Shown here: positions 2,317-47,166 of the stretch, piece after piece
Layout of the letters: each line of letters opens with the position of its first letter
Numbering within the stretch: position 1 is the first letter of the stretch
Origin: a bacterium
Lineage (GTDB): Bacteria; Patescibacteriota; Minisyncoccia; Phycocordibacterales; VMGT01
NCBI GenBank assembly: GCA_030697645.1
Contig: JAUYPI010000002.1
Location: forward strand, 1 to 59,210
DNA: 59,210 bases
Reading direction: 5' to 3'
The notes under the pieces: model-generated
What the model saw: the letters and a program-made list of their open reading frames with translations, nothing else
Told to the model about the DNA's origin: nothing
Databases searched by the model: none
Position numbers and translations under genes: made by a program

Positions 2317-3271
2317 AATCAACTTGTCCGGTCTCGACCTCGCGCCGAACGCCGCAGAGCGGAGTAGCGACGGGACACCTATACACAAAACCACGATCAT
2401 CACTGTCGTGGCTCTTTTTGTGTTGGCCGCACTTGGCGGCGGCTATTTTTACTACCGCAGCATTTACCAACCGAGGGTGTATGTACAGACCATCGTGCCG
2501 CTCTACGAGAGCGCCGGTCTCCTCGGAAGTGAAGCTCCAGGAGAGCCAGCGCTCCAAGGCCCTTCCGGCCCGCTCGACTACACCGGCGCAGCAGAGGCAA
2601 TCGCCGCGCGAGCACGGAAATTGACTGCCGCTCGTGCGGAAATTGCCACTCTCGAGCCGCCGAATGCGAAACTCGCTGGCTTTCACGCCGCGCTCCTTGA
2701 TGTGCTTGACCGTGCCGCTGCTGCAAGCGCGGAGGCAGAAACCCATGCACGTTTTTTCGAGAAGCTCCTCAAGCTCAAAGAGGAGCTCGGCGCCATACAC
2801 GAGACCGTCTCGACGCCAGAGCAACAGCAGAGCATCCGCACCGTTGGAGGGCTCTCTGATGCCTGGGTGCCGCATTTCACCAAAGCCAAAACGGTCGGCG
2901 CGGACGCATTCAATGTAAAGATCCGCGCGTTAGGAAAAGATGACACACAGATCGCCGGGATCGTCACTCTCTGGGACGAGATCGTGGCGGATATTGACTT
3001 CTTCATCGAGCTCTTCGGCTCGCTCCGCCCCGAAACCCGCCTCGAAAACCTGCAAACTGTCCTTACTCCGGCGCAAAATTCACGGGGTGAAAAAAGCTTC
3101 GGACATTTTGAGGAACTTATCAGGCAGATTGACGCGCTTACCGCCGCGCTCAGTGCCACGGTAGTACTCGATCTTGGCGTCTCTCTCGGCGAGGACGACA
3201 TCGAGCTTAGCGAAAAAGCCTATCAGACGTACCGCGCGCTCGAGGATCTCAAGCGACGCTACCTACCCTGA
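2303..3271 (+). CDS. Single-pass membrane protein, helical exterior
   Basis: The start at ATG 2303 (MSVDEINLS) is preferred over an upstream GTG because it leaves only a 14-base overlap with the preceding gene. A cytoplasmic tail of about 30 residues is followed by one membrane helix (ITVVALFVLAALGGGYFYY). The rest, about 260 residues, is mostly Ala/Leu/Glu-rich helix, predicted outside the membrane. It lies in a co-directional run of envelope genes. No known family was recognised. Confidence 0.7.
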   Translation: MSVDEINLSGLDLAPNAAERSSDGTPIHKTTIITVVALFVLAALGGGYFYYRSIYQPRVYVQTIVPLYESAGLLGSEAPGEPALQGPSGPLDYTGAAEAIAARARKLTAARAEIATLEPPNAKLAGFHAALLDVLDRAAAASAEAETHARFFEKLLKLKEELGAIHETVSTPEQQQSIRTVGGLSDAWVPHFTKAKTVGADAFNVKIRALGKDDTQIAGIVTLWDEIVADIDFFIELFGSLRPETRLENLQTVLTPAQNSRGEKSFGHFEELIRQIDALTAALSATVVLDLGVSLGEDDIELSEKAYQTYRALEDLKRRYLP

Positions 3272-3278
3272 CCTTCCT

Positions 3279-3817
3279 ATGGATACCCTCCCATCACGTC
3301 TCATACGCCTTCATCAGGGGACGATGGGGCTTTTCTCCCTCGCGCTCCTCTACCAGCTCTTCCACTGGATAGAACATGTGGTACAGGTCTACCAGCACTG
3401 GCTCCGCGGGATGCCAGCAGCCCAGTCGCACGGCATTTTGTTCTTTCTCGATTTCGAGTGGAATCACTTCGTGTTCAATACCGGCTACTTTATCGCACTC
3501 CTCGTCGTGCTCATCCTGATCATAACCAAACGGCAGGTATTCGACATACGCGCCTCCGCCCTCTGGCTTCTCGGCATCGGCACTGCCATACAAGGATACC
3601 ACCAGATCGAGCACATAGTGAAAATATCCCAACACCTCGCGCGCGGATGTGAGCCGTGCCCGGGGATATCATCGGAAAAACCCTCGACGGGGTGTACCTT
3701 CATTTCACCCTGAACTCTCTCGTGCTCCTCCTGCCCTTGGCGGCGTTTCTCATCACTTTTGTCCCGCGCCTTATCCACAGGCCCCAAAATATCGCGCATG
3801 TTGCAGTGGTACAATAA
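3279..3817 (+). pseudogene. Multi-pass membrane protein with a frameshift
   Basis: Starts at ATG 3279 (MDTLPSRLIRLHQG). Residues 1-128 hold several hydrophobic helices and two His/Glu-rich segments (FHWIEHVVQVYQHW and YHQIEHIVKISQHL). The frame would end at 3713. From 3665 the next frame instead encodes DIIGKTLDGVYLHFTLNS and another hydrophobic helix, ending at 3817. One extra G in the G4 run at 3662-3665 would join the two frames seamlessly. It is either a real 1-base deletion or a consensus error in a homopolymer. The paired HxxEH-type motifs could bind metal or heme, but this is speculative. Confidence 0.7.
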
Positions 3818-3867
3818 AAGCGTCAAACTTTAATCACCCTCAAATGGCTTCACGCCAGCATTATTAA
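3771..3867 (+). promoter_or_regulatory. Promoter plus 7-codon leader, copy 1
   Basis: TTATCCACAGGC at 3771, a -10 box TACAAT at 3810-3815, and a mini-ORF ATGGCTTCACGCCAG.. at 3844-3867 encoding MASRQHY-stop. The arrangement is repeated at 6588-6683 with the same 34-base distance from -10 to ATG. The left part overlaps the end of the frameshifted gene. The gene downstream of this copy is decayed. Confidence 0.55.
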
Positions 3868-4120
3868 TTTTATAATTTTACTTCGTCTATTGCTGACGCC
3901 GCCACCTCCACCGCGAATCTGGATACTTCCACCGGCAATTTTGTTGGGTATTCTGTGGTTCCTGAAGTTTCCGTTATTTTCGTCGTGAATCCATAGTCAA
4001 AGAGGATCAGACGCAAAAATTACTCGAAAGCTCACACGCAATTTCACTGGCGATCCCTATTTTCAAAGTAGGTGCGAACGTACCGGTTCGCCAGTGCTTT
4101 TGGGTATGGTCCGTAGAAGT
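3868..4120 (+). other. Non-genic stretch with coding remnants
   Basis: No intact gene. One frame (about 3886-4000) reads like a protein (TSSIADAATSTANLDTS..) without a start codon and ends in a stop, as if a secreted-protein gene behind the leader cassette had lost its beginning. Another short open stretch precedes the next fragment. I regard the region as decayed sequence. Confidence 0.35.
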
Positions 4121-4342
4121 ATGAAGAAGAATATGTCTTTTTGTGTCACATCGTCCGCCGTTTTCTCGCTGTGTTTTGTAGTTCCCGGATTTTTGGTTTC
4201 GGCGGAAGACCACGATCCGTTTTCAGAAAATAACGTCGAGCTGCGTTCTCCGGGATTAACTCCTGATAGCTCGTTCTATTTTTTGGATACTCTCGGGGAA
4301 AAAATAAATAAGAATGAGCATCAACAAAAATATGATTCGTGA
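4121..4342 (+). pseudogene. Truncated DUF5667-like secreted protein
   Basis: ATG 4121 (MKKNMSFCVTS) begins a signal peptide ending near VSAED. It is followed by LRSPGLTPDSSFYFLDTLGEKI, the usual opening of DUF5667-type exported domains found in this phylum. After this the reading frame breaks off (..HQQKYDS) at 73 residues, whereas the domain normally continues as about 100 residues of Ala/Glu-rich helix. It is therefore a 5' fragment. Its end overlaps the next gene's start by 11 bases. Confidence 0.6.
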
Positions 4343-5404
4343 CAACAAAAATAAATTTTTAGCAGTAATTGCTATTTCTCTACTGATAGTAGGGGGGGAT
4401 CCGTCGCTCTTTTAGTACAGGCGCAAGCCCCGTGCGTTTCCTCCTTGAATATTCCTAACGACCCTCCATCCTATGGTCTTCTCGTGAGATCAAATCTTTC
4501 CTGTGCCACTTTTCAAATTAAGGGGCCTGTTGAATATTCGGGCGAAGGACTTTATTGGTCCAAGTTTGAGGCGCCACCAGGTATGTACACAATCACGTGG
4601 AGTTCCATTTCGGGCTATATCATGCCTCTATCCGAAACCAAAGAACTCAAAGAAGGCGGCGGGTTGCTCTTTCTTGGAAGTTATAACGAAGCAGGATATC
4701 CACAGGGGAAAGGAACGATCAAGGTTTATCTTCTTAACTCTTTTCCGCCTCCATACCCCGATTTTACCCTAAAAGGTCCTATGACTCTGACGGAAGAATT
4801 AAGTTCCAAGTGGGAAAGAGAGATGCCAGTCGGAACATATACTATAACCTATGAGGATTTGGATGATCACGGAGCACCTCCTCCCGAGACAAAAATACTT
4901 GAACGCAACGGCACCATTACTTTTGACGCGGCTTATGGTTCTCCCAAAGCCCACGTATTTACCATCGATTCCAAACCTTCTGGAGCAAAAGTGTATCTTG
5001 ACGGATCATTGCTCGGAAACGCACCAATAAAAGCAAAAATTTCGCTGGACAGCACAAAACATGCTATTCGCTGTTCGCTCCATGGATATGAAGACTATAA
5101 TTACTACGATTACAGAGCGCAGGAACCGGGTTCGACAACATATTCTATAGGCGCAAAGTGGACGTGCGCGATGGTTGCTCAAAAGGAACAGCCGAGGTCA
5201 TCTGCAACGAAATCTCCTACTCCGCCGTCTCTTAAAAGCGTGTCAGAGGTTAAATTGAAAAGTGAGTTGATGCCGCCGCCCCAACCAGAAATTAACGAGC
5301 AGCTCTCATCTCCTCAAGCCGATACGCTACAAACTCCTCCTCGAAAACCGCAGGGATTTTTCTCTCGCATCTGGAGAGCCATACTTTCTATTTTTGGAAA
5401 GTGA
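4332..5404 (+). pseudogene. PEGA-domain secreted protein, frameshifted in G7
   Basis: ATG 4332 opens a signal peptide (MIRDNKNKFLAVIAISLLIVGG) that hits a stop at 4413-4415. One frame back, the hydrophobic segment continues as SVALLVQAQA and runs on to 5404. The shift point is the G7 run at 4392-4398; eight Gs would restore one frame. The mature part has two related beta-rich units (both with PxGxYTITxx), then a PEGA domain (FTIDSKPSGAKVYLDG). It ends in a basic, aromatic tail (GFFSRIWRAILSIFGK) that may touch the membrane. Sequencing error, true decay or -1 slippage on the G run are all possible. Confidence 0.65.
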
Positions 5405-5458
5405 TTTGTTGTTACCAAACGTTTAGAAGCGATATTTATTACTCAATAAAGGTGAATT

Positions 5459-6256
5459 ATGACAAAAAAACTAATGGTGCTAGTCATGATCGTGGTGATT
5501 CTGGGTGGATTGGGATATGTTGTGCTGAACAATAAAGAAACGGAACAAGACCCAAAACTGCTTATTGGCCTTTGGAAAACGGAAAGTTCGATTTTCCCCG
5601 ATGGCGAATATTTGGAGATGAAAGAAACGGAGTTCTGTTCTGTTTGGCAAACTTTTCGAACAGACCCATATTTCCGCTGTTCAAAATATGCTCCCTATAT
5701 TGTTTCTGGCAATCGGGTTGGATTCCTTCAGCCACCTCAACCAAATACTAAATGGGAAGTGACCGGCAATACACTTACCCTGTGGTCAGGTGGTGACAAG
5801 GGCGAAAAGAAATTATATGAGCGTGTAGATCCGAACGTTGCCCCGGCACAGACATCATTTCCTGAAGAGTCAATTTTCACTAGAGACTCAGATGGAAATC
5901 TCATGGTAAAGCCGACGCCCCTTTCTCAATCGCCAGTTTCCAGCAAAGACTCAGAAAAACCCAAAATAGTTTCGTTTAAAGCCAGCTCTCAGTCGGTGAA
6001 GACTGGCGGTGAAATATCATTTATGTGCTCTGCTACTGATAATTCAGGCTCTGTTCAGATTGCATTTGATATTGCTGGACTTATTGAGGGCGGTACTGCA
6101 AACGCATTCGAAGGGGGACCGTTCCGATCAAGCGGCGATTCGCACTCTTATACATACAAGCCGGCATTTGCGGGGAATTACAAAGTAACTTGTCAAGTGT
6201 CAGACGAGGCGCAAAATAAAACAGAATCCTCTATCTTATTTTCTGTAACTCCTTAA
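5459..6256 (+). CDS. Anchored protein with lipocalin-like and Ig-like parts
   Basis: 265 residues starting at ATG 5459, preceded by AAAGGTGA about 7 bases upstream. An N-terminal membrane helix (VLVMIVVILGGLGYVVL) is followed by a compact beta domain (about 35-125, IGLWKTESSIFPDG..LYERVD) reminiscent of lipocalin-type folds. A Ser/Pro linker leads to an Ig/PKD-like domain (about 170-265). AT-richer than the flanking surface genes. Function unknown; an extracellular role is inferred. Confidence 0.7.
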   Translation: MTKKLMVLVMIVVILGGLGYVVLNNKETEQDPKLLIGLWKTESSIFPDGEYLEMKETEFCSVWQTFRTDPYFRCSKYAPYIVSGNRVGFLQPPQPNTKWEVTGNTLTLWSGGDKGEKKLYERVDPNVAPAQTSFPEESIFTRDSDGNLMVKPTPLSQSPVSSKDSEKPKIVSFKASSQSVKTGGEISFMCSATDNSGSVQIAFDIAGLIEGGTANAFEGGPFRSSGDSHSYTYKPAFAGNYKVTCQVSDEAQNKTESSILFSVTP

Positions 6257-6257
6257 T

Positions 6258-6554
6258 AATTTCAATACACTCGCGCAGCGCAACGACATCGGCATGCTCT
6301 GGGAAAATTATGTGTTCATCGAACGCCTAAAGAAGCAAGAATACCAAAGTATTTCGGCGAACAATTACTTTTGGCGCACCTACGACCAGCAGGAGATTGA
6401 CCATGTCGAAGAACGCGAGGGCGCGCTCTTCGGCTACGAATTTTCCTGGGGCGAGAGGACAAAAAAGAAGCCGCCCCGCGCGTGGCTCGAGACATACCCG
6501 AACGCAACCTACGAGGTGATCAACCGCGACAACTACCTCGACTTTATTGCGTAG
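6258..6554 (+). pseudogene. C-terminal fragment of a DUF4143 AAA ATPase
   Basis: The reading frame FNTLAQRNDIGMLWENYVFIERL, then NNYFWRTYDQQEIDHVEE and ETYPNATYEVINRDNYLDFI, matches the C-terminal end of the AAA+ ATPases that carry a DUF4143 domain. The ATPase part is missing: homology begins directly after the stop codon of the preceding gene (6254-6256). This is a recombination remnant. It supports the view that 3.3-6.6 kb is a deletion-prone patch. Confidence 0.7.
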
Positions 6555-6587
6555 GAGTTTGTTGTCGCACGGTCTCCATCGGTACTT

Positions 6588-6683
6588 TATCCACAGGCGC
6601 GAGGGTGGCGCACGGATTGTAGGAGTATAATAGCACTGTCGAACCTTATTCGCTCAAAAATGGCTTCACGCCAGTATTATTAG
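6588..6683 (+). promoter_or_regulatory. Promoter plus 7-codon leader, copy 2
   Basis: TTATCCACAGGC at 6588, -10 box TATAAT at 6626-6631, and the mini-ORF at 6660-6683 encoding MASRQYY-stop. This copy precedes the giant surface protein gene (ATG 6732). It matches copy 1 (3771-3867) in order, spacing and leader codons. A small GC-rich hairpin-capable stretch lies between the leader stop and the structural gene. Confidence 0.6.
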
Positions 6684-6731
6684 TTTTCATAATTTTTACT
6701 CTACCGCGCCCTACCGCGCGGCCGTATTTTT

Positions 6732-9700
6732 ATGCGTACCTTTTTTTGTGCACGCGCGCTCGCGAGCGCCATGATTATTGGCACCGTCATCTCTCCGATC
6801 GCGCCGCTCACTGCGCTCGCCGCGCACGTCGAGGATGATCCGTGGCACCGAGGCACCGCCGCGGGCGCGGAGCAGACGGCCTCTGCTCTCCTTGCGGTAA
6901 GCACCGCAAGCGGAAAAACGGAAACCGCTCCCTCCGGCATCAGCTCTGAGTGGAACTTTTCAGACGATGAAACAGAGCTCTACCACACCATACGTTTTCC
7001 CTTTGATCCGCCGCCTATATCCTTTCGCGTCTATTACAAGAAGCCCGGGGAGAGCGCCTTCACCCGCGTTGCGGAGTTTACGCTGCTCCCGACCTCCTGC
7101 GACACACAAGCGACCGTAAGCTCGTGGACCCTCCACAAACGCTGCAACGACTCCCGCTGGGAGATCAACTCCCCGCATCTTGCGCCATCCTCGTACACAG
7201 ACGGCGAATATCGCTTCTACCTCTCGTCAATCAACGGCTCGGGCAAGGAACACCCGTCGCAGGAGTTTAGCTTGACGTATCCGACAACACCACCGAGCGA
7301 GCAGGTGAGTCAAACGAGCGCGGCGAGCCTCCAGTCGCAGCTTGACGCCGCGAAGGCAAAGGTCAATGAGCTTGTAGAGAAGCTCCAAAAGAGCGCGACG
7401 ACGCCAAGCACGCCGACTCTCGCACCGGCTCCGTCACCGAGCTCGGCCGTGAGCACGCCTGCTCCGACGCCGACATCAGTAGTGCGGGAGGTCCCGACCA
7501 TCACCCGCAACCTCTCGCGCGGTGCCTCAGGGGAGGATGTGAAAAAACTCCAGAAATTCCTTGCTCAAGACAAGAGCGTCTATCCAGAAGGGCTTGCCAC
7601 GGGTTTTTATGGCGCGCTCACTGAGGCTGCGGTCAAACGCTTCCAGGAAAAGCACGGCGTTGAGGCGGCCGGCAGCATCGGGCCAAAAACGCGAGCGAAA
7701 CTCTCCGAGCTTGCGACGGGTCAGCCGGGCGCACAGGCAGTCGGACGGAGCGAGCGGCCGATGCCACTCAGCGCTGTCGCCATTGGAAAGACTGCGATAC
7801 GCGGCGCATCGGGTGAACATGTAAAAAAAGTTCAGGAATTTCTCGGAATGTTCCCAGAGATTTACCCGAACGGCCAGGCAACCGGCTACTTCGGCGAGCA
7901 GACGGAAAAAGCGGTGAAAAAATTCCAGGAGAAAGTTGGTCTCGCGCAAACGGGAGAAGTTGACGACAAGACAAAAGACACCCTCGATCGTCTCCTTGTT
8001 GCAGGAGAGAAGAAACAGCCGCCAAAAATTACTGACGTTACCCCGAGCTCCGGATCAGCCGGCATCACCGTTACCCTCTCCGGCCGCGGGTTTACCGACG
8101 AGGATAACGCCATCATGATGCGCGGGAAAATCGTGGCAACCGCCCTCAAAGCGTACGACAATAACTCCCAAATTGACTTTGTACTCACCTCGGACGCCCC
8201 ATGCGCTCCGGGCTCGAAGAAGCCGTGCCCGATAAAGGTGGTGAACGCAAACGGCATTTCAAACGCAAAGCCCTTCAAGCTCGAGTCGTTCGTCTACACC
8301 CCGCCGGGACTAGACACAAACACCCCTCCCGAGCCGGAGCCCGCACCGCTCCCGGAGCCGGAGCCCATACCTCCGCCCCTCTCAGACACCGGCGCGCCGA
8401 CTCGCTCAGACGGCTCTCCTTCGGGAGAGCTCGCGCACGGCACGAAGAGTGCGACGCTCTCGCTCACAACCGACGAAAACGCGACATGTAAGTATGCAAG
8501 CGTATCCGGTACGTCCTACTCTTCGATGACGCTCACGTTCTCGACGACCGGGAGCACGACGCACTCGACGAGCGTCTCCGGCCTTACGGACGGTACGTCA
8601 TACAATTACTATGCGCGCTGCTCGGACAGCGCCGGGAACGTCAATGCGGATGATTACGCGATTTCGTTCAGCGTGGCAACCCCGCCAAAGCCCGTTATCA
8701 CCATGCTCTCGCCGACGAAGGGCGTCGTCAGCACTGCTGTAACCATCACCGGCTCTGGCTTCACCACAACAGGCAACACGGTGAGCTTCGCTGGAACAGA
8801 CGCTGCTACCAATCTTCCTTCCACCGACGGCAAAACACTTACCTTCAGTGTTCCAACGGGAACCACATGCACGATCGGCTCGACCTGCGCCGTCGCGGTG
8901 CGGAATGTGAACGGCACGAGCAACGAGAGCGCGTTTCTCCTCACGCAAAATATCGCGCCCGTGCAGGTTGTCTTCCCGAATGGGAACGAAAATCTCGTCC
9001 AGGGGGTTGACTTTACCTTAAGCTGGACCGGCGGCACGGACCGGGTAGACATTGTGCTCGTTGAAGAAGGCGCGACTCAAGGCGCGGACCCCGGCGCATT
9101 CATCGTCGGTTGGATTGCGCACGCCCAAAGCCCCAACAGCACGGTCAACTGGAACGTAAAAACCGTCTGCAGCGATGACGGGAGCGTCTGCACCGATGTT
9201 ACGCCCGGGAAATACAAACTGATGGCGCTCTCGGAGGATGAACTCGGAGCACTGATGATCTGGGACGACGCAACCGAGAGTCCCGGCAACTGGGATCTCT
9301 CAAACAGCGCCTTCACGATAAGCCCGTCTGCAACGCTCACGGTTGTGGTCCCGAACGGCGGCGAGATCGGCTCGCAGAACTCGGCGTTCATCATCTGCTG
9401 GGCAACGATTGACCTCAAGAGTCAGGCCGTCAACATTCAACTGTTAAAGAACGGCGCGCTGTATCGGACAATCACCTCATATCGGCAAGCGTCTCCGAAC
9501 GGCGCGTTCATCACGAACTGGCTCATCCCGGGCGACGTACCGGAAGGCGCGGACTACCAGATTAAAATTTCAGACGCGGCCGTGCCGCAAGTGAGCGACA
9601 TGAGCGACAAGCCGTTCTCGATCACCGCCGCCACATCCGCGATTCGGGTCAATCAGCCAAACGGCAGCCCCTACAACTGGAGCGAAATTTGGTACTCCGG

Positions 9701-32474: not shown

Positions 32475-33329
32475 TCACCCGAGCCCAAAAACACGCCCGG
32501 CATTTAGGGCGAGTGCCTCGCGGACCCGGGTCTCGTCCTCGCCGCGGATGAGAGCGATGCGAGCGACGACCTCGCGCACGTAGACCGGCTCGTTGCGCGT
32601 GCCGCGGTAGGGCACGGGCGCGACATACGGCGCGTCGGTCTCGGAGAGTATACGGTCAAGCGGAATAAAATGAACCTGATCATCGTAGTCGCGCGTAAAC
32701 GTCGTCACGCCGCCGAAGGAGAACGAGAAGCCGAGGTCGAGGAGGGCGCGGGCGTCGTCGAGGGAGCCGGTGAAGAAGTGAATGATTCCGGGATTGCTGG
32801 AATTATGAATCATGAAGTAAGAATCAAGAATCTTAATCAGATCATCGAAAGCATCTCGACAGTGCACCATGAGCGGCTTTCTTACTGCAAGCGACAGCTC
32901 AATTTGTTGACGAAAAACTGCTTCCTGCTTAATTCTTGATTCCTGATTCTTGATTCTATAGTAATCGAGTCCGCACTCGCCGATCGCGACGACCTTTGGA
33001 TGAACGGCAAGGTGCTTATAGTAGTCGTAATCAAAGTCCTCGCCGCGCGACGTAAAACCGTCCCCTGATTCCTGATTCATACTTCCTAATTCCTTCGCAT
33101 CGTGATACGACCGCTCTGTATGTATCGGGTGAAGCCCCACGCTTGCATACACGCCCTGCTCGTATCGTTCTGCAGTCGCCACCGCCGCAGCTGACGTATC
33201 CCGCTGCGTACCCACATTCACCATTGTGACACCAGCCTCGAGCGCACGACGAATCACCGCGTCGCTGTCGTCCCTAAACGCGGCAAAGTGAGCGTGCGTG
33301 TGGACGTCGAAAAAATGTATAGTTGTCAT
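32475..33329 (-). CDS. tatD: TatD-family metal-dependent DNase
   Basis: 284 residues from ATG 33329 (MTTIHFFDVHTHAHF). TIM-barrel hydrolase; metal ligands are visible in DVHTHAHF, GECGLDYY, MVHCRDAF, IIHFFTGS and SETDAPYVAPVP. TatD proteins are 3'-5' exonucleases linked to repair and DNA turnover. Three stretches encoded by GAATCAAGAATC-type words interrupt it in-frame: about 79-89 (GSMNQESGD), 123-134 (YRIKNQESRIKQ) and 165-178 (DSYFMIHNSSNPG). A broken copy of its first exon-sized 35 codons sits at 34509-34679. Confidence 0.92.
   Translation of the reverse strand: MTTIHFFDVHTHAHFAAFRDDSDAVIRRALEAGVTMVNVGTQRDTSAAAVATAERYEQGVYASVGLHPIHTERSYHDAKELGSMNQESGDGFTSRGEDFDYDYYKHLAVHPKVVAIGECGLDYYRIKNQESRIKQEAVFRQQIELSLAVRKPLMVHCRDAFDDLIKILDSYFMIHNSSNPGIIHFFTGSLDDARALLDLGFSFSFGGVTTFTRDYDDQVHFIPLDRILSETDAPYVAPVPYRGTRNEPVYVREVVARIALIRGEDETRVREALALNAGRVFGLG
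32798..32835. repeat. In-frame word repeat in tatD (third)
   Basis: Units GAATTATGAATC and GTAAGAATCAAGAATC on the + strand, encoding SYFMIHNSS on the minus strand. Confidence 0.6.
32929..32960. repeat. In-frame word repeat in tatD (second)
   Basis: Tandem TGATTCT / TGATTCC units on the + strand, placed directly after the conserved GECGLDYY metal motif. Confidence 0.65.
33063..33093. repeat. In-frame word repeat in tatD (first)
   Basis: Units CCTGATT / CCTGATTC / CCTAATTCC on the + strand, encoding GSMNQESG. Confidence 0.55.
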
Positions 33330-33702: not shown

Positions 33703-33720
33703 GGTATGAGCTATAGGAGT

Positions 33721-34021
33721 TCAGTACGGCCGGACAATACGCAACCCTTCAGCCTCAATCGGCTGATAGTGCCGCACGTTTCGCGTCACGAGCGGCAGAT
33801 TGTAGATGAGCGCGGTCGCCGCGACAATCGCGTCGGCAAACGGCGTACGGTAATCACGTTTCAACATGCCTGCTTTGCGGGCAGAGGTCGCGTCAAGCCC
33901 AAGGAGGACAAACGAGTCGAAAAATCTTTGCAGCGGACACGCCACGCAAATAATCAATCAAAATGTCGGTGTCAACGCACACTAGCGCCCTATCGCCAGG
34001 ACCTTCGTAGACGGTTGACAT
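33721..34021 (-). pseudogene. VapC-type PIN toxin, internally deleted
   Basis: From ATG 34021 the minus strand gives MSTVYEGPGDRALVCVDTDILIDYLRG, with the first PIN Asp residues. The frame then ends at 33893. In another frame, RKAGMLKRDYRTPFADAIVAATAL and LVTRNVRHYQPIEAEG supply the PIN C-terminal half. About 35-40 residues between the halves are missing. It is a dead toxin: a deletion plus frameshift has removed central acidic residues. The antitoxin-like genes upstream remain open. Confidence 0.7.
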
Positions 34022-34181
34022 ACGCGACTGAAGACACGGCGCCGAACGCTTTTTTGAACATGCCGAATGCGTCCGGATTAACCTTTGTGCCTGTAATGCT
34101 CCCCAGACGCACCGACGTCCGCCCCGCACGAACACGAGCGTCACGGAAACGCACGGACGCACTATATTCATTTTTACTCAT
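33990..34181 (-). CDS. Small ORF between antitoxin and broken VapC
   Basis: 63 residues from ATG 34181 (MSKNEYSASVRFRDARVRAGR), ending LRRSWR. It overlaps the toxin start by 32 bases, a common antitoxin-toxin arrangement. The segment KVNPDAFGMFKKAFGAVSS resembles toxin-binding tails of some VapB proteins, but I cannot assign a family. It may itself be a remnant. Confidence 0.4.
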   Translation of the reverse strand: MSKNEYSASVRFRDARVRAGRTSVRLGSITGTKVNPDAFGMFKKAFGAVSSVAYVNRLRRSWR

Positions 34182-34210
34182 CACGGCGTTTACCATAATA
34201 AAGTAGTGTA

Positions 34211-34456
34211 TCAAAAGTTCGTCAACGAGTCTGCAAACGCATCGTCGTGAAGTCGCGCAATTGTGCCGCTCCCCTTCCCGCGCGATCGGCCTGAGGCAAT
34301 AAACGAAAACTTCGTACGCGCTCCATAGTCGCCGAGCGAAAAAGAGGCGCGGAGTGCACGCCGGACGGTTCCTGCGACTGAACTGCCTTCACGAAACGAT
34401 TGCTCGCGAATCGCCTCAAAGAGGCGCTCATCAAGTTGTATCTGTGTTCGATGCAT
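34211..34456 (-). CDS. Ribbon-helix-helix antitoxin
   Basis: 81 residues from ATG 34456. MHRTQIQLDERLFEAIREQSFREGSSVAGTVRRAL is a typical ribbon-helix-helix start (beta strand, then two helices). It is followed by KFSFIASGRSRGKGSG and IARLHDDAFADSL, the toxin-neutralising tail of VapB-like proteins. It represses its own promoter, probably through the palindrome at 34472-34493. Its cognate toxin appears to be the broken VapC downstream. Confidence 0.75.
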   Translation of the reverse strand: MHRTQIQLDERLFEAIREQSFREGSSVAGTVRRALRASFSLGDYGARTKFSFIASGRSRGKGSGTIARLHDDAFADSLTNF

Positions 34457-34508: not shown

Positions 34509-34679
34509 TTACTCACCACTCAGGGCGCCGCTCTCAAGCGCACGTCGAATTACCGCGTCGCTATCATCCCTAAACCCCGCTTCGCGCGGTCGGGCGACCG
34601 AATCCGGAGGATTCGGTTTAGCCTTAAACGCGGCGAACTGGGCGTGGGCGTGGGCGTCGAAAAAATACGAGGTTGACAT
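34509..34679 (-). pseudogene. Duplicated 5' fragment of tatD
   Basis: ATG 34679 reads MSTSYFFDAHAHAQFAAF, then FRDDSDAVIRRALESGA, matching tatD residues 1-33 (MTTIHFFDVHTHAHFAAFRDDSDAVIRRALEAG), and stops at 34509. An 18-residue in-frame insertion from a GC-rich hairpin (GAATCC-TCC-GGATTC core) splits the fragment. The true tatD lies 1.2 kb away, on the other side of the toxin-antitoxin scar. The 34457-34754 gap holds only this fragment and the operator. Confidence 0.8.
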
Positions 34680-41408: not shown

Positions 41409-41609
41409 CGTGTCCGACATCCGATGTCCCCCATCATGCGAAAGCTCCAAGCTCCAAAAAACCAAGCTCCGAACAAATCTCAATACTCAAATTCCAATGT
41501 GGAAACACGGACTGCGACGTGTTTGTGATTTGAGATTTGAATCATTGAAATTTGTTTGGAAATTGTTGGTTGGAAATTGGAGCTTCGTCGTGGTGTGATG
41601 TCGGACACG
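41409..41609. repeat. 201-bp palindromic word repeat
   Basis: 13-bp outer stem CGTGTCCGACATC / GATGTCGGACACG. The left arm is of AAGCTCCAAGCTCC and CAAATCTCAATACTC words, the right arm of the complementary TTTGAGATTTG and GGAAATTGGAGC words. Centre AACACGGACTGCGACGTGTTT. It fills most of the 466-base gap between recO and the 41306 gene. Confidence 0.7.
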
Positions 41610-41772: not shown

Positions 41773-42366
41773 TCACAGATGGCTCGCCGCAAGCGCCTCG
41801 TTGATCGCGCCGACGAGGGCAGCGCGCGCAGGAGCGAGTGCGGAGAATAAGCTACGATCCCAGCCGCTTTGAGCCGCCACCGCCGCCCCCGGCTGCCCGG
41901 CGTCAAGATAACCGAGAAGGAAGAGCACGCGCGAGACGCCGATAACCTCGACGAGCGCGAGTTCGTCCTCGCGTAGGTCCTCACGCACTACGAATCGCAC
42001 AGTCTCCGCGACGCGCTCAAAGAGCTTCTCATCCGGCGCATCCTGCGGCACGAGACGCCGCACGAGCGCGGCTAGCCGCGCAATGACCGCAGCAGCGCCT
42101 GGTCGCGCACTCTCACACGCCCCCTCGTCGGGCTCCGTAAGCGCGCCGACAAGCCGCCACGTCTCTCTCCCGCGCACGAGTGAAACACGAGAGCGCGAGA
42201 GCGTCGCGAGGTGCGGCCGCAGCCGCGATCGGCACAAACGCGCACCCTGCGCGTGCGCGTACACGAGACCGCACGAGCGCGTGAACAGCACGACCCTCCT
42301 CGACGCCTCCCCGCTCGGCTCGGAGCCGAGCACGAGAGCCTCTGTCATGTAGCGATGGTAGGACAT
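41773..42366 (-). CDS. recO: DNA repair protein RecO
   Basis: 197 residues, shorter than the usual 220-250. Start at ATG 42366 (MSYHRYMTEALVLGSEPSGEASRRVVLFTR), the OB-fold opening of RecO. A helical C-terminal part (about 80-197, LFERVAETVRFVVREDLREDELALVEVIGVSRVLFLLGYL) follows. It acts in RecFOR loading of RecA and in annealing. There is no visible CxxC zinc motif. A second, truncated copy of the first 25 codons lies at 43075-43136 beyond a toxin-antitoxin module. Confidence 0.85.
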   Translation of the reverse strand: MSYHRYMTEALVLGSEPSGEASRRVVLFTRSCGLVYAHAQGARLCRSRLRPHLATLSRSRVSLVRGRETWRLVGALTEPDEGACESARPGAAAVIARLAALVRRLVPQDAPDEKLFERVAETVRFVVREDLREDELALVEVIGVSRVLFLLGYLDAGQPGAAVAAQSGWDRSLFSALAPARAALVGAINEALAASHL

Positions 42367-42416
42367 GCTGACGCAATTTCTAATTTTCAATCTCTAATTT
42401 CCAAACTGCGCGTCAC
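42304..42416 (-). repeat. 113-bp direct repeat, copy B (recO 5' end)
   Basis: Runs from recO codon about 21 through the start codon and its leader with TCTAATTTTCAATC-type words. About 90% identical by eye to 43075-43186, same orientation. The two copies bracket the BrnT-like module. Confidence 0.8.
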
Positions 42417-42419
42417 TAT

Positions 42420-42704
42420 TTACGTCCGCATCTCATGCTGCTTCCTGACGTGTTCCAAAACCCACATACGAATAAGCGTTGTCGCGCCAACGCCCCTTTC
42501 GTGAGCTTCTGAGCGTACCTGCTCAAGAGTATTGGGATCGAAGCGAATCGTAATGCCCTCGGATAGATTCTTCGCAAAACGAACACGAACGGGCTTGAAC
42601 TCGTCCTCATAGTCAGCGGTGCTATGAGTATCCCAAAACGCAGCCTCTTTCTCGATGCTCGAAAATTCGGGGATACGTTTTTTTGTACTGGTTTTCTTCG
42701 TCAT
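42420..42704 (-). CDS. Antitoxin of the BrnT-like module
   Basis: 94 residues from ATG 42704. KKRIPEFSSIEKEAAFWDTHSTADY is typical of CopG/BrnA-type antitoxins. A ribbon-helix-helix-like part follows (VRVRFAKNLSEGITIRFDPNTLEQVRSEAHERGVGATTLIRMWVLE). It lies 10 bases after the toxin gene, so toxin-first order, as in BrnTA operons. It should bind the palindrome in the module's promoter. Confidence 0.85.
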   Translation of the reverse strand: MTKKTSTKKRIPEFSSIEKEAAFWDTHSTADYEDEFKPVRVRFAKNLSEGITIRFDPNTLEQVRSEAHERGVGATTLIRMWVLEHVRKQHEMRT

Positions 42705-42714
42705 AGTTGTGTCT

Positions 42715-42984
42715 CTACACTTGATGATAGTTTCTTCGCTCTTTGCGGTCGGCGGGTCTCGCGGTTATGGGGTAGTAAACACCCTCTTCCTGTGTGGATG
42801 CCAAGATGACCGTGAGTATGCGACCGCTCTGCGTTAGCCCTACAACACGGATTCGACCTTTGCGGGTCTCGCTCGTAACTGGCTTGCCGTGACACACGCC
42901 CTCGACCTCCTCGGAGGTAATATCGTGGCGGGCAATGTGGGCAACATTCCAAGTGTCCCAGATAAGGCGGTGAACGGAGAGCAT
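42715..42984 (-). CDS. BrnT-like toxin
   Basis: 89 residues from ATG 42984 (MLSVHRLIWDTWNVAHIARHDITSEEVEGV). WxxxNxxHIxxHxIxxEEVE near the start, RIRVVGLTQSGRILTVIL in the middle and ITARPADRKERRNY at the end follow the BrnT (RelE-fold RNase) pattern. It is expected to cut mRNA when free. The pair is complete and lies between two copies of the recO 5' end. Confidence 0.8.
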   Translation of the reverse strand: MLSVHRLIWDTWNVAHIARHDITSEEVEGVCHGKPVTSETRKGRIRVVGLTQSGRILTVILASTQEEGVYYPITARPADRKERRNYHQV

Positions 42985-42990
42985 GGGATC

Positions 42991-43018
42991 ATTGTAACGC
43001 AATGTGTTACCTTGTCAA
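42991..43018 (-). promoter_or_regulatory. Promoter and operator of the BrnT-like module
   Basis: Minus-strand TTGACA (43013-43018), 16-bp spacer and TACAAT (42991-42996), 6 bases before ATG 42984. The spacer holds the inverted repeat GTAAC-N7-GTTAC, a likely antitoxin operator. Confidence 0.7.
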
Positions 43019-43074
43019 ACGCGGCGCAACACGCCTTTTTATGCTGCGCTCTCCATGGCGAAAAGCGTCTGCAC

Positions 43075-43136
43075 GCCTCCCCGCTCGGATCCGAGCCGAG
43101 CACCAGGGCGTCCGTGATGTAGCGGTGGTACGACAT
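43075..43136 (-). pseudogene. Truncated second copy of recO 5' end
   Basis: ATG 43136 encodes MSYHRYITDALVLGSDPSGEA, then diverges. It matches recO residues 1-21 with three conservative changes. Confidence 0.8.
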
Positions 43137-43186
43137 GCTGACGCAATTTCTAGTTTTCAATCTCTAATTTCCAAACTGCACGTCAC
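43075..43186 (-). repeat. Direct repeat, copy A (recO 5' end)
   Basis: Partner of 42304-42416. Similarity ends at GCCTCC inside the recO frame on one side and at CGTCAC in the leader on the other. Confidence 0.8.
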
Positions 43187-43238
43187 CGTTTTTGTGATCT
43201 TTTCTCTGCGCGCTGTTCTGCGTGCTGCATGCTGCTTA

Positions 43239-46200
43239 TTACTTGCTGCTCGGCGCGCCGAGCGTAATCACGATTGAACCGATCTTATATACTTCGCCGC
43301 CCTCAACACTCTCCACTTTCTCAAATTCAACTTTCGTACGCGCCGAGATGTTTGCGCCGTGCTCGCGCATCCACGCCTCCCCAGCCTCGTCTGCAACATA
43401 GACAACGCTCGCTTGATCCTGCGGCGCGAGTCCGGCCTTCTTGCGCAGCTCCTGCAGAGCGCGCGTAAACGCACGCGCTTCGCCTTCTTCCTTCAGCTCA
43501 TTCGTAATGGTAGACGCCATAGTTCCTTCGGCAAGGTCGCCCACTAGCGCCTTTTCGATATTGACTCTTTTAACATTGAGCCCCTCACGGAGCACCTCAA
43601 GCAGTGAATCCGAAAGCGCGACTTTGCCCCATTTCTCCACCGTGTACTGCTCAAGCGGCTGTCGCACCGGTATGCGAAAACCCTCCCGCGCTCTAAGCCC
43701 GAAAGACATGTGTGCATCGAGCACGGCACCCATCTTGAGAATTTTTTTATCTATTCCCCATGGGTGCGGCCACTCGGCGAGGTGAACACTCTCCGGCGCG
43801 TCCCGGCCCTTTACTCTCTGGTAGACGTGCTCGGCGAGAAACGGGGTGAAAGGAGCCATGAGCCGCGCCAACGTCTCGAGTACAAACCGCGTCGTCCCGA
43901 CAGCCTGCCGCTTATCCTCTGCGTCGTCACCCTTAAACCGCTCGCGAGATCGTCTGATATAGCCTTGGGAGAGATCCGCGATAAATTCCCGCACTTCGCG
44001 CGCTGGCTCAAACACCTCGAACTGATCGAGGTCTTCCGTCATGGTGCGAATAAGCTCGCCCAGCCGGGCGAGGATGAGGCGGTCGAGATCGTGTGCGCTC
44101 TCATACGACGCCTCTGTGTCAACCGCGTAGAGTTCATAAAATCGAAGAGAGTTGAGCAGCAAATTATGCACCTTTCGTATAATCTCCGCGACTGTTTTTT
44201 CGTCAAAATTTTTTGAGTCGCCCGGCTGGTTGACCGTATACATCCAAAAACGCAGCGCATCAGCCCCATATTGCTCAATCATATCCCACGGGTTCACCAC
44301 GTTGCCTACCGACTTCGACATTTTTTTGCCTTCCACGTCCAAGATGTGGCCGAGAGAGATAACATTTTTATACGCCTTACCGCGGCCCATCAGGACCCCA
44401 ATCGCATGCAGCGTATAAAACCACCCGCGCGTCTGGTCAATCGCCTCGGAAATAAAATCAGCGGGGTACAGCAACGTATGCTCTGATCCCGTGCCGCCGT
44501 CCTGCGCAAACGGCATCGCGCCCGAGTCAAACCACACATCGAGCACCTCTCGTACACGAGAGAGCTCGGTGCCGTCTCTAGCACAGAGCGTCACATCGTC
44601 AATATATGGGCGATGTAGATCAAGCTCATAGTCTGCGTTGTGCGGCACTGGTACGAAATCGAGCGGCTTAACTTCGGCAGTTGCTATGTCAAATCGTACG
44701 TCCTCGATTGCCGCCGAGCTCGCCTCGCGTGTGAGTCCTGCCGCGCCAGCAAAAAGCATCTGGATGGTGCCATTGTGCGAGACAATGAGAACGCACCGCT
44801 CGTGCTCGCGTGTTTCAAGCTCGTAGAGTAGTTCGGTCACGCGTCGCTTCACATCCCCCCACGTCTCGCCGCCCTCGAGCCGCTTCGTAAGCCGCTCCCC
44901 AGAGGCACCAAAAAATGCGTGGTACTCGGCAACGCTCTTGCCTTCAAACTCGCCGAATGATATTTCTGCAAGACGCGGATCTTCACGCACGTCCGCAACA
45001 GCGAGCGCACGCGCGACGCGCTCGGCAGTCTCCCGCGCTCTCGGGAGCGGCGAATGTACGATGAGGTCAATACCGCGCCCTGTAAGCTCTCGCGCCGCAG
45101 CATCGACCTCCACGACCCCGTGCTCGGTCAGGTGGTTCTCCGCCACTGTCGGATCGGCATTCAACACATCGCGCATATTCCACAACGCCTCCCCATGCCG
45201 CATGACAAAATACCGATTCCCTGATTTTTTCGTATGTTTTTTGAGCGTGTCGAGTGAATCAACGACGAGAGTCTTCGCTCCGTCTGCTGATCTCCATATG
45301 GGAAGAGGCGTCCCCCAATACCTCTCGCGCGAGATCGCCCAGTCCTTCACCTCACGGAGCCACTCACCGAATCGCCCTTCCTTGATGTGCGCGGGGATCC
45401 AGTTGACGCCCTCATTCTCTTTCACCAGCTCATCACGCAGTTCCGACATGCGGATGTACCACGAATCGCGCGCATAATATATGAGCGGCGTCTTGCACCG
45501 CCAGCAGTGCGGGTAGCTGTGCTCATATTTTTCTTTTTTGAAAAGCAGACTCCGATGTGCAAGGTCTTTGATAATTTCAATAGCCGTCTCTTCGTCCCGC
45601 ACAAATTTTCCCTCTAAAAATCCAGTGCCTTTGATAAAGTGCCCGCTCTCGTCCACGAGATGGTGCTTCGGCAGGCCTACCTTCGTCCCAAGTTCAAAGT
45701 CGTCCTGTCCATACATCACCGCGGTATGCACGATGCCAGTGCCTTCTGTGGTAGAAACAAAATCGGCAGTATACACTTTGAAAGCATTGGCAAAATTTTT
45801 CTGCTGTGCTATTGCAGATATTTGCAAGAATGGGTAAGGCGGATCGTAACAAACTTCCGTCAAATTCAGACCGAGAAAATGCCGCTCCACCTCAGTTGCT
45901 TCTCCAAATAAACGATCGGTCGCCTGTCTCGCCACGATAAAATGCTCCCCTTGGTACGATATCAGATCGTACGTAATACCCTCACCTACCGCAAGAGCTA
46001 TGTTGCCCGGCAGTGTCCATGGCGTCGTCGTCCAGGCAAGAATGTATGTACAATCATCAGTTGTCCACTTTTCTATTTTCTGCCCCGGCTTTACCTTAAA
46101 CTTCACGTACACCGACAAATCTTTCACGTCCGCGTATCCCTGCGCGAGCTCATGGCTTGAGAGCGCGGTGCCACAGCGGGGGCACCACGGCACCACCTTG

Positions 46201-46727
46201 TAATCCTTATAGAGAAGGCCGCGTTCATGCACATGCTTCAGAATGCCCCAGACTGACTCGATATACTCCGGCTTGTACGTAACATACGCGTTGTCGAGAT
46301 CAACCCAATACCCGCTGCGCTCGGTAAACCGCCGCCATTCGTCTACATACTTCCAGACGCTCTCCCGACACTTCTCATTAAACTGCGCAACGCCATAGCC
46401 TTCAATTTCTTTTTTCGACTTCAGGCCGAGCTGCTTCTCCACCTCAAGCTCCACCGGCAGTCCGTGTGTATCCCAGCCGCCCCTGCGGCGCACATGGTAG
46501 CCACGCATACTGCGGTAGCGCGGTATAGCGTCCTTAAATGCGCGCGCTTCGAGGTGGTGGATGCCGGGTCGACCGTTTGCCGTCGGCGGCCCTTCATAGA
46601 AAACAAACTCGCCCGCGGGCGAAGGCTTCTCAAGTGTGCGCTCAAAAATCCTCCGCTCCTGCCAGAAGCGGAGGATTTCTTCTTCGCGCTGTGCCGTAGT
46701 ACTTTTTTGTTTATGATCGTCCTCCAT
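43239..46727 (-). CDS. ileS: Isoleucine--tRNA ligase with inserted histidine phosphatase domain
   Basis: 1162 residues from ATG 46727 (MEDDHKQKSTTAQREEEIL), versus 930-1050 normally. Class I motifs: PPTANGRPGIHHLEAR (HIGH variant), GGWDTHGLPVE, RYWGTPLPIW and GKKMSKSVGN (KMSKS). Between TPLPIW and LHRPYIDDVTL, about residues 500-695 form a histidine-phosphatase domain: YFVMRHGEALW, SPLPRARETAERVA, EISFGEFEGK and VLIVSHNGTIQ, so the RHG motif and second His are intact. The C-terminal end is GAPSSK, encoded within an AGCAGCAAG repeat. Its start overlaps the VapC toxin end by 17 bases. Confidence 0.95.
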   Translation of the reverse strand: MEDDHKQKSTTAQREEEILRFWQERRIFERTLEKPSPAGEFVFYEGPPTANGRPGIHHLEARAFKDAIPRYRSMRGYHVRRRGGWDTHGLPVELEVEKQLGLKSKKEIEGYGVAQFNEKCRESVWKYVDEWRRFTERSGYWVDLDNAYVTYKPEYIESVWGILKHVHERGLLYKDYKVVPWCPRCGTALSSHELAQGYADVKDLSVYVKFKVKPGQKIEKWTTDDCTYILAWTTTPWTLPGNIALAVGEGITYDLISYQGEHFIVARQATDRLFGEATEVERHFLGLNLTEVCYDPPYPFLQISAIAQQKNFANAFKVYTADFVSTTEGTGIVHTAVMYGQDDFELGTKVGLPKHHLVDESGHFIKGTGFLEGKFVRDEETAIEIIKDLAHRSLLFKKEKYEHSYPHCWRCKTPLIYYARDSWYIRMSELRDELVKENEGVNWIPAHIKEGRFGEWLREVKDWAISRERYWGTPLPIWRSADGAKTLVVDSLDTLKKHTKKSGNRYFVMRHGEALWNMRDVLNADPTVAENHLTEHGVVEVDAAARELTGRGIDLIVHSPLPRARETAERVARALAVADVREDPRLAEISFGEFEGKSVAEYHAFFGASGERLTKRLEGGETWGDVKRRVTELLYELETREHERCVLIVSHNGTIQMLFAGAAGLTREASSAAIEDVRFDIATAEVKPLDFVPVPHNADYELDLHRPYIDDVTLCARDGTELSRVREVLDVWFDSGAMPFAQDGGTGSEHTLLYPADFISEAIDQTRGWFYTLHAIGVLMGRGKAYKNVISLGHILDVEGKKMSKSVGNVVNPWDMIEQYGADALRFWMYTVNQPGDSKNFDEKTVAEIIRKVHNLLLNSLRFYELYAVDTEASYESAHDLDRLILARLGELIRTMTEDLDQFEVFEPAREVREFIADLSQGYIRRSRERFKGDDAEDKRQAVGTTRFVLETLARLMAPFTPFLAEHVYQRVKGRDAPESVHLAEWPHPWGIDKKILKMGAVLDAHMSFGLRAREGFRIPVRQPLEQYTVEKWGKVALSDSLLEVLREGLNVKRVNIEKALVGDLAEGTMASTITNELKEEGEARAFTRALQELRKKAGLAPQDQASVVYVADEAGEAWMREHGANISARTKVEFEKVESVEGGEVYKIGSIVITLGAPSSK

Positions 46728-47166
46728 GCTGCCTGTCATTACCGTACTTTTTGAGGATAGCGAGCGGTTCATGACGGTCTATGCCGAGTTTATCGAAATC
46801 CTTATCGTACGAAACCAGCGCCAATGAGCCATCCTGCAGGCCCGGATTCGAAGCGATGAGCGCGTCGACGAACTTTACCGAATGAGCGGCATAGAGGTTG
46901 AGTGCCAAACGCATTTGTATACGATCGTCGAGCGTAATGCCAATGGCGTCAAAAGAGCGCAGCGCCTCCGTCGCCTTCTCTTTGCTAAACTGATATACGC
47001 CGCCGCGCAAAACCCACACCACCTCGGCACATACGCATGAGGACGTACGCGCTTCAATGCCTCGCGCCTCAACGAGATCAAAGAGCCGCGCACATTCACT
47101 GTGTATTTTCTGATCTTCCGGAACCAAAAAACGCAAAACAATATTCGAGTCAAGAAAACAAATCAT
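46711..47166 (-). CDS. VapC-like PIN-domain toxin
   Basis: 151 residues. PIN nuclease pattern with acidic residues in MICFLDSNIVLRFL, CAEVVWVL, KFVDALIAS and LVSYDKDFDKL; such toxins cleave tRNA or other RNAs. It overlaps the antitoxin stop by 4 bases (coupled translation) and the ileS start by 17 bases, so toxin and IleRS expression may be linked. Confidence 0.85.
   Translation of the reverse strand: MICFLDSNIVLRFLVPEDQKIHSECARLFDLVEARGIEARTSSCVCAEVVWVLRGGVYQFSKEKATEALRSFDAIGITLDDRIQMRLALNLYAAHSVKFVDALIASNPGLQDGSLALVSYDKDFDKLGIDRHEPLAILKKYGNDRQHGGRS

Follow-up and report, generated by a model that had tools for sequence, protein, structure and literature searches.

A BrnTA-like module between two copies of the recO start, and related toxin-antitoxin loci flanked by repeated gene ends in a Patescibacteria lineage

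How chromosomal toxin-antitoxin (TA) modules without mobility genes move is an open question. Restriction-modification (RM) systems have been described to insert with a long target duplication (Nobusato et al., 2000; Furuta et al., 2010; as cited in PMC3874152, PMC3031569 and PMC4978471). As far as these later papers describe them, they resemble the locus presented here in that long direct repeats of variable length, on the order of 100 bp, enclose an addiction-type module that has no mobility genes, and in that genomes without the insert carry one copy, which in our material applies to recO in the related genome G002, to relatives with adjacent ileS and recO, and to ftsE in the genome G001. 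Going by the same descriptions of the RM side, the differences are that the cargo here is type II TA of several families and not RM, that the repeats are mostly gene ends which keep a housekeeping gene intact, that the hosts belong to the Patescibacteria, and that the copies resemble diverged alleles, not fresh duplicates. No report of a TA module with a long target duplication was found in searches of open-licence literature.

Foreign DNA can also enter a chromosome by homology. Single crossover of small circles in E. coli gave duplications of 109-950 bp of the homologous locus, and homology-facilitated illegitimate recombination has been described as well (PMC3240628). The likeness to our loci is that foreign DNA enters beside a short homologous stretch and leaves a partial duplication; those events, however, involved laboratory plasmids, had no TA cargo and showed no link to gene ends. 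Some integrative elements are targeted to one end of a gene, 5' or 3', and make the gene whole again with a replacement end which they carry; they have a site-specific integrase of their own and a single fixed site. Our loci share with them the replacement gene end that keeps the target functional, whereas here there are many target genes and no integrase. Flanking copies of recO are, to our knowledge, no known feature of the BrnTA family. The module at recO is like that family (Pfam BrnT_toxin, PF04365, and CopG_antitoxin, PF12441) in having the toxin gene first, the CopG-type antitoxin second and a promoter-like site of its own, and differs in that the BrnT match of this putative module, at 29.3 bits, is below the curated Pfam cut-off of 34.5 bits.

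The stretch analysed, here called the window, is a whole contig (C2) of 59,210 bp from a 1.03-Mb draft genome in 20 contigs (G000), which alone represents its genus in the genome set searched. The closest relatives by ileS are Parcubacteria/Paceibacterota-type genomes at ~49-56% identity. In minus-strand order the locus reads ileS, outer recO stub, brnT, brnA, inner repeat and recO:

43239..46772, minus strand: ileS, the old upstream neighbour of recO (gene-order comparison with relatives)
43073..43191, minus strand: outer recO copy, a stub of leader and first 21 codons (start codon at 43136; non-recO sequence beyond)
42991..43018, minus strand: promoter-like site of brnTA, TTGACA-16-TACAAT (consensus match only, 11/12)
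42715..42984, minus strand: brnT-like toxin gene (BrnT_toxin full-profile match, E = 1.1e-6)
42420..42704, minus strand: brnA-like (CopG family) antitoxin gene (CopG_antitoxin 53.7 bits, cut-off 28)
42303..42421, minus strand: inner recO copy, leader and first codons used by intact recO (repeat comparison)
41773..42366, minus strand: intact recO (RecO_N E = 2.5e-9; orthologues in 75 of 79 genomes)

The two recO repeats align without gaps over 119 nt at 89% identity, and blastn of the repeat against the genome gave 114 nt at 90.4% (E = 5e-37). A sequence-only reading of this DNA had already placed a BrnT-like module between two copies of the recO leader and first ~21 codons, the inner one beginning the intact gene and the outer one a stub; the alignment, the RecO_N match and the continuation of the stub into non-recO sequence bear this out. 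The same reading gave the module its own promoter and operator. Of these the promoter-like site agrees with the consensus at 11 of 12 positions, 0.6 sites as good being expected by chance in the region, while the operator is a possible one: a GTAAC-N7-GTTAC inverted repeat which overlaps that site. The insert of ~650 bp holds only brnT and brnA and encodes no recombinase. It differs from a transposon or IS element in having no transposase ORF, and its sole long inverted match is a palindrome inside the recO coding repeat.

Two further observations belong to this part of the window. A PIN-domain gene (46711-47166) overlaps the annotated ileS start, so that TA-like genes stand on either side of ileS; no flanking repeat was found at this PIN gene. 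A short way downstream of recO (41413-41605) lies a copy of a dispersed, partly palindromic element of ~190 bp, with copies 85-90% identical at L045 5279-5470, L046 15052-15247 and L047 6334-6518, which resembles a MITE or REP-type family.

The neighbourhood of recO and ileS can be followed in relatives: of 80 named loci, 71 have the two genes at most 6 kb apart, and where the gap was measurable (69 loci) it is no more than 120 bp in 32. In G002, which belongs to the same family, the ileS stop adjoins the recO start (L027), with a single recO start and the module absent. Inserts between ileS and recO in other genomes have no flanking recO copies. A recO duplication lacking the module, which would make the duplication unrelated to it, was looked for and seen in none of the relatives examined, the empty-site comparison being one with distant relatives. 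The proposal that an insertion had spared the host gene is supported by the intact recO and by these module-free relatives with one recO start, i.e., G002 and those with adjacent ileS and recO elsewhere. The additional claim that the module had become hard to delete cleanly is not supported. It is the reverse of how direct repeats behave, since recombination between them would excise the module exactly and restore one recO start, and persistence would therefore need addiction or divergence of the repeats.

A scan of G000 for local direct repeats, filtered by copy number because dispersed AT-rich palindromic repeats dominated the unfiltered output, showed that the recO anatomy recurs at tatD, murA, ftsE, recA and, twice, at a transketolase gene. 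Outside recO the loci are (the first three lines in window coordinates):

34533..34679, minus strand: outer tatD 5' copy, containing a palindromic insertion that keeps the frame (repeat comparison)
33720..34456, minus strand: region between the tatD copies, with antitoxin-like ORFs and a PIN toxin gene in decay (PIN match 33766-33918)
33237..33329, minus strand: inner tatD copy, start of the intact tatD (gene 33329-32475; repeat comparison)
L050, 2550-3340: murA 3' end, PIN
L068, 3536-4399: ftsE 5' end, MNT-HEPN
L083, 10551-12500: recA 5' end, MNT-HEPN
L063, 7249-10502: transketolase C-subunit gene, two stubs in series, with PIN between copies 1 and 2 and, after the second stub, MNT-HEPN followed by the working gene

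In this genome seven of the 11 TA loci tested, a count which excludes two additional weak ParE matches, lie between imperfect direct repeats of a neighbour's gene end: all three HEPN modules (as MNT-HEPN), the single BrnT module and three of the four PIN genes. Two HicA loci and one ParE locus (C13, C14 and C18) have no flanking repeats, and neither has the remaining PIN gene, the one upstream of ileS. TA assignments are predictions from family similarity or motif; MNT was assigned from sequence motifs, HEPN and PIN from profile matches. The same architecture had been pointed out at tatD before, correctly, as its 5' end is repeated with a PIN remnant and antitoxin-like ORFs between the copies, and the search for repeat-flanked modules at further housekeeping genes yielded recA, ftsE, transketolase and murA. 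With murA the pattern includes 3' ends, which the earlier reading did not have. Between the two murA 3' ends (L050 2550-2611 and 3279-3340) the 8-bp loop of a hairpin is inverted (CGCCGAGCG-TCTCCGCG-CGCTCGGCG), as template switching at a palindrome would do.

The survey was extended to other genomes of the order, each TA gene being scored by aligning its two 1.3-kb flanks locally with each other and taking the best alignment on the same strand. A locus was counted as positive at a score of at least 25, a cut-off set after a first batch had been seen; weak PF05168 matches to acidic repetitive proteins (L107-L110, L113) and truncated loci were omitted. By family the positives were 3/9 for BrnT, 7/14 for HEPN, 6/23 for PIN, 2/21 for ParE and 4/24 for HicA. 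Outside G000 and G002, 13 of 80 TA loci were positive, compared to none of 52 gene-centred controls (NUDIX 0/25, recO 0/27) and four of 219 random windows (Fisher p = 2e-6 against the pooled controls; it should be noted that the loci are not independent, several coming from one genome and some being orthologous). Inverted alignments reached 25 at three TA loci and at no control, and their rarity means that the survey signal is one of direct repeats. The repeats at positive loci are imperfect and ~35-225 bp long; L103 (palindromic) and L199 (very wide) are weak positives. Positive loci include the following, with host-gene names read from the sequence without a family search:

L092: epimerase 3' end, BrnTA
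L105: M50-type peptidase 3' end, HEPN
L301: htpX-like 5' end, HicBA
L327: methionine aminopeptidase 3' end, PIN
L288: ABC ATPase 5' end, HicA
L266: glycosyltransferase 5' end, RelE/ParE

The recO event is probably one of many such events in its Patescibacteria lineage, and the data suggest that gene-end recombination, and not a transposase of their own, is what spreads such addiction modules.

Empty and filled sites can be compared at two more genes. G002 has, like G000, MNT-HEPN modules at ftsE and at the transketolase gene. G001, a congener of G002 whose ftsE is 92% identical, gave no HEPN match, and in it ftsE begins only once, immediately behind prfB; at its transketolase locus no clear gene start could be discerned. 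The inner ftsE copy of G002 agrees with G001, and its outer stub has codons in common with G000; as gene X is absent in G001, these likenesses give no direction to the event. At both ftsE and transketolase the copies within one genome are more alike than they are to the copies of the other genome, which indicates that gene conversion or repeated events were also involved. The recA N-termini of relatives were considered as a guide to the native copy and were too divergent.

The differences between the copies bear on where the second copy came from. The first model to consider is the one known from the RM systems, in which the insertion copies ~100 bp of the resident target, after which the identical repeats drift with some gene conversion. 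It accounts for repeat lengths of the same order as the "order of 100 bp" given for RM systems (PMC3874152), the need for the host gene to survive explains why the repeats are seen at gene ends, and it fits with leaders which are nearly identical (differences in 2/50 positions at recO, 2/75 at recA, 8/73 and 4/38 elsewhere, all below the third-position rate). In a freely drifting stub, however, changes should be equally frequent at all three codon positions. The differences at positions 1/2/3 are 0/0/9 for recO, 1/3/9 for the tatD core, 3/2/7 for recA, 0/0/1 for murA and 4/1/11 for transketolase copy 2 against copy 3. Even between transketolase copies 1 and 2, both of them dead stubs, they are 2/1/11, i.e., 11 of 14 at position 3, and the indels in the recA (24 nt) and tatD stubs are in frame. 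Pooled over six coding repeat pairs at five loci of G000, position 3 holds 48 of 65 differences, which departs from one third with p = 3e-11 and from one half with p = 8e-5, the latter proportion being roughly our own expectation for one copy drifting freely while the other is constrained. This bias, present also between two dead stubs, suggests that both copies probably diverged as working alleles and were later juxtaposed, and it argues against a simple target duplication at insertion, a point missed by the sequence-only reading. It could also be that conversion between stub and gene is so frequent that mutations in the stub become costly, which would likewise shield positions 1 and 2. The third-position bias points away from both copies deriving from the resident target, the leader similarity does not, and we regard duplication of the resident target as unlikely, though as an explanation to be taken seriously.

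On balance we lean towards integration of horizontally acquired DNA at a gene end, by single crossover or one-sided homology, in preference to plain target duplication. What favours such an import is the TA enrichment over the controls, the anatomy shared across families and hosts, the empty sites, the third-position bias and the G002 ftsE locus. It is postulated that the incoming foreign or allelic DNA already bore a homologous gene end and was joined there, by a single crossover if circular or through one-sided homology if linear; no dedicated recombinase would be required, and Patescibacteria are reported to be competent (PMC12455944). The outcome would be a direct duplication with copies from two lineages. 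BrnTA and a further copy of the leader and first codons of recO would have entered between ileS and recO, after which the inner copy would start the working recO and the outer one be left as the stub. Gene ends would be what is observed because events elsewhere would break the host gene, so that the survivors would be those which duplicated a gene start or stop and left it unbroken, and the TA module would afterwards resist loss through addiction. Counting against import of DNA are the low divergence of the leaders, which is not predicted unless leaders are constrained, the clustering of copies by genome, and the repeat-flanked inserts without TA.

At several MNT-HEPN loci the antitoxin may owe its expression signals to the captured gene start. 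The recA stub and the MNT antitoxin form one continuous reading frame of 150 aa that includes RecA residues 1-47, the stop of the transketolase stub overlaps the MNT start (ATGCATACGATAA), and so does the stop of the ftsE stub in G002 (ATGA). From this anatomy, the leader of the host gene may drive the MNT antitoxins at such loci; recO BrnTA, in contrast, has a promoter-like site of its own. HEPN is in turn fused in frame to a lipoprotein-like protein in the transketolase modules of G000 and G002 and in the recA module. For annotation this is a warning: near TA modules these genomes can have a doubled gene start, and the N-terminus of an antitoxin can be joined to part of RecA or of another essential protein. 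A wider formulation, which we offer tentatively and as less than probable, is that TA modules of many families in Patescibacteria would form a recombinase-free mobile class, borne on small DNA with the end of an essential gene, integrating by homology at that gene end in a recipient and kept by addiction, the gene working with the incoming or the resident copy and its promoter and translation start sometimes being taken over for the antitoxin. One junction anatomy across TA families in one order, with the host gene preserved and copies like alleles of two lineages, makes the process testable.

The other explanations fare less well. A transposon or integrative element whose recombinase acted in trans could have moved the modules, and one anatomy common to many target genes and unrelated cargoes is what it would give; as the ~650-bp recO insert encodes no recombinase, the junctions have no common end and the repeat length varies widely, we consider this improbable. 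The 13-mer TTGCGTCAGCATG, which occurs three times in the stretches examined (window 42364 and 43134, in both recO copies, and L068 3565, in the ftsE stub), is too little to claim a site. It is still more improbable that the gene-end duplications arose independently and TA modules were captured between them later, or that the association is incidental: some repeat pairs in G000 do enclose non-TA genes (window 3771-6696, L056, L085), but the TA enrichment outside G000 and G002 is strong and no module-free recO duplication was seen in the relatives. An assembly or binning artefact, conceivable for a draft in 20 contigs that is possibly metagenome-derived, can hardly be the cause, with copies that differ by 5-25%, structures internal to contigs, orthologous structures in the separately assembled G002 and similar ones elsewhere.

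Several non-TA inserts of G000 were noted. In the window a 110-bp direct repeat of an intergenic leader (3771-3879 and 6587-6696, 74% identical) surrounds ~2.7 kb in which a PEGA-domain protein and one further ORF are encoded. At L056 a 196-bp repeat (572-767 and 3270-3465, 89%) made up of the promoter and 5' end of a 222-aa gene flanks ~2.5 kb, which includes an ORF resembling a REP-associated (Y1-type) transposase; here a gene start is doubled around a non-TA insert. At L085 a 120-bp direct repeat (5061-5178 and 6639-6758, 96%) begins just downstream of an apparent tRNA 3' end; the ORF enclosed by it, of 258 aa, resembles a membrane protein. Finally, two adjacent response-regulator genes at L049 share a 124-bp stretch (6653-6776 and 7208-7331) which is 96% identical in genes that are otherwise diverged, and this looks like a recent gene conversion.
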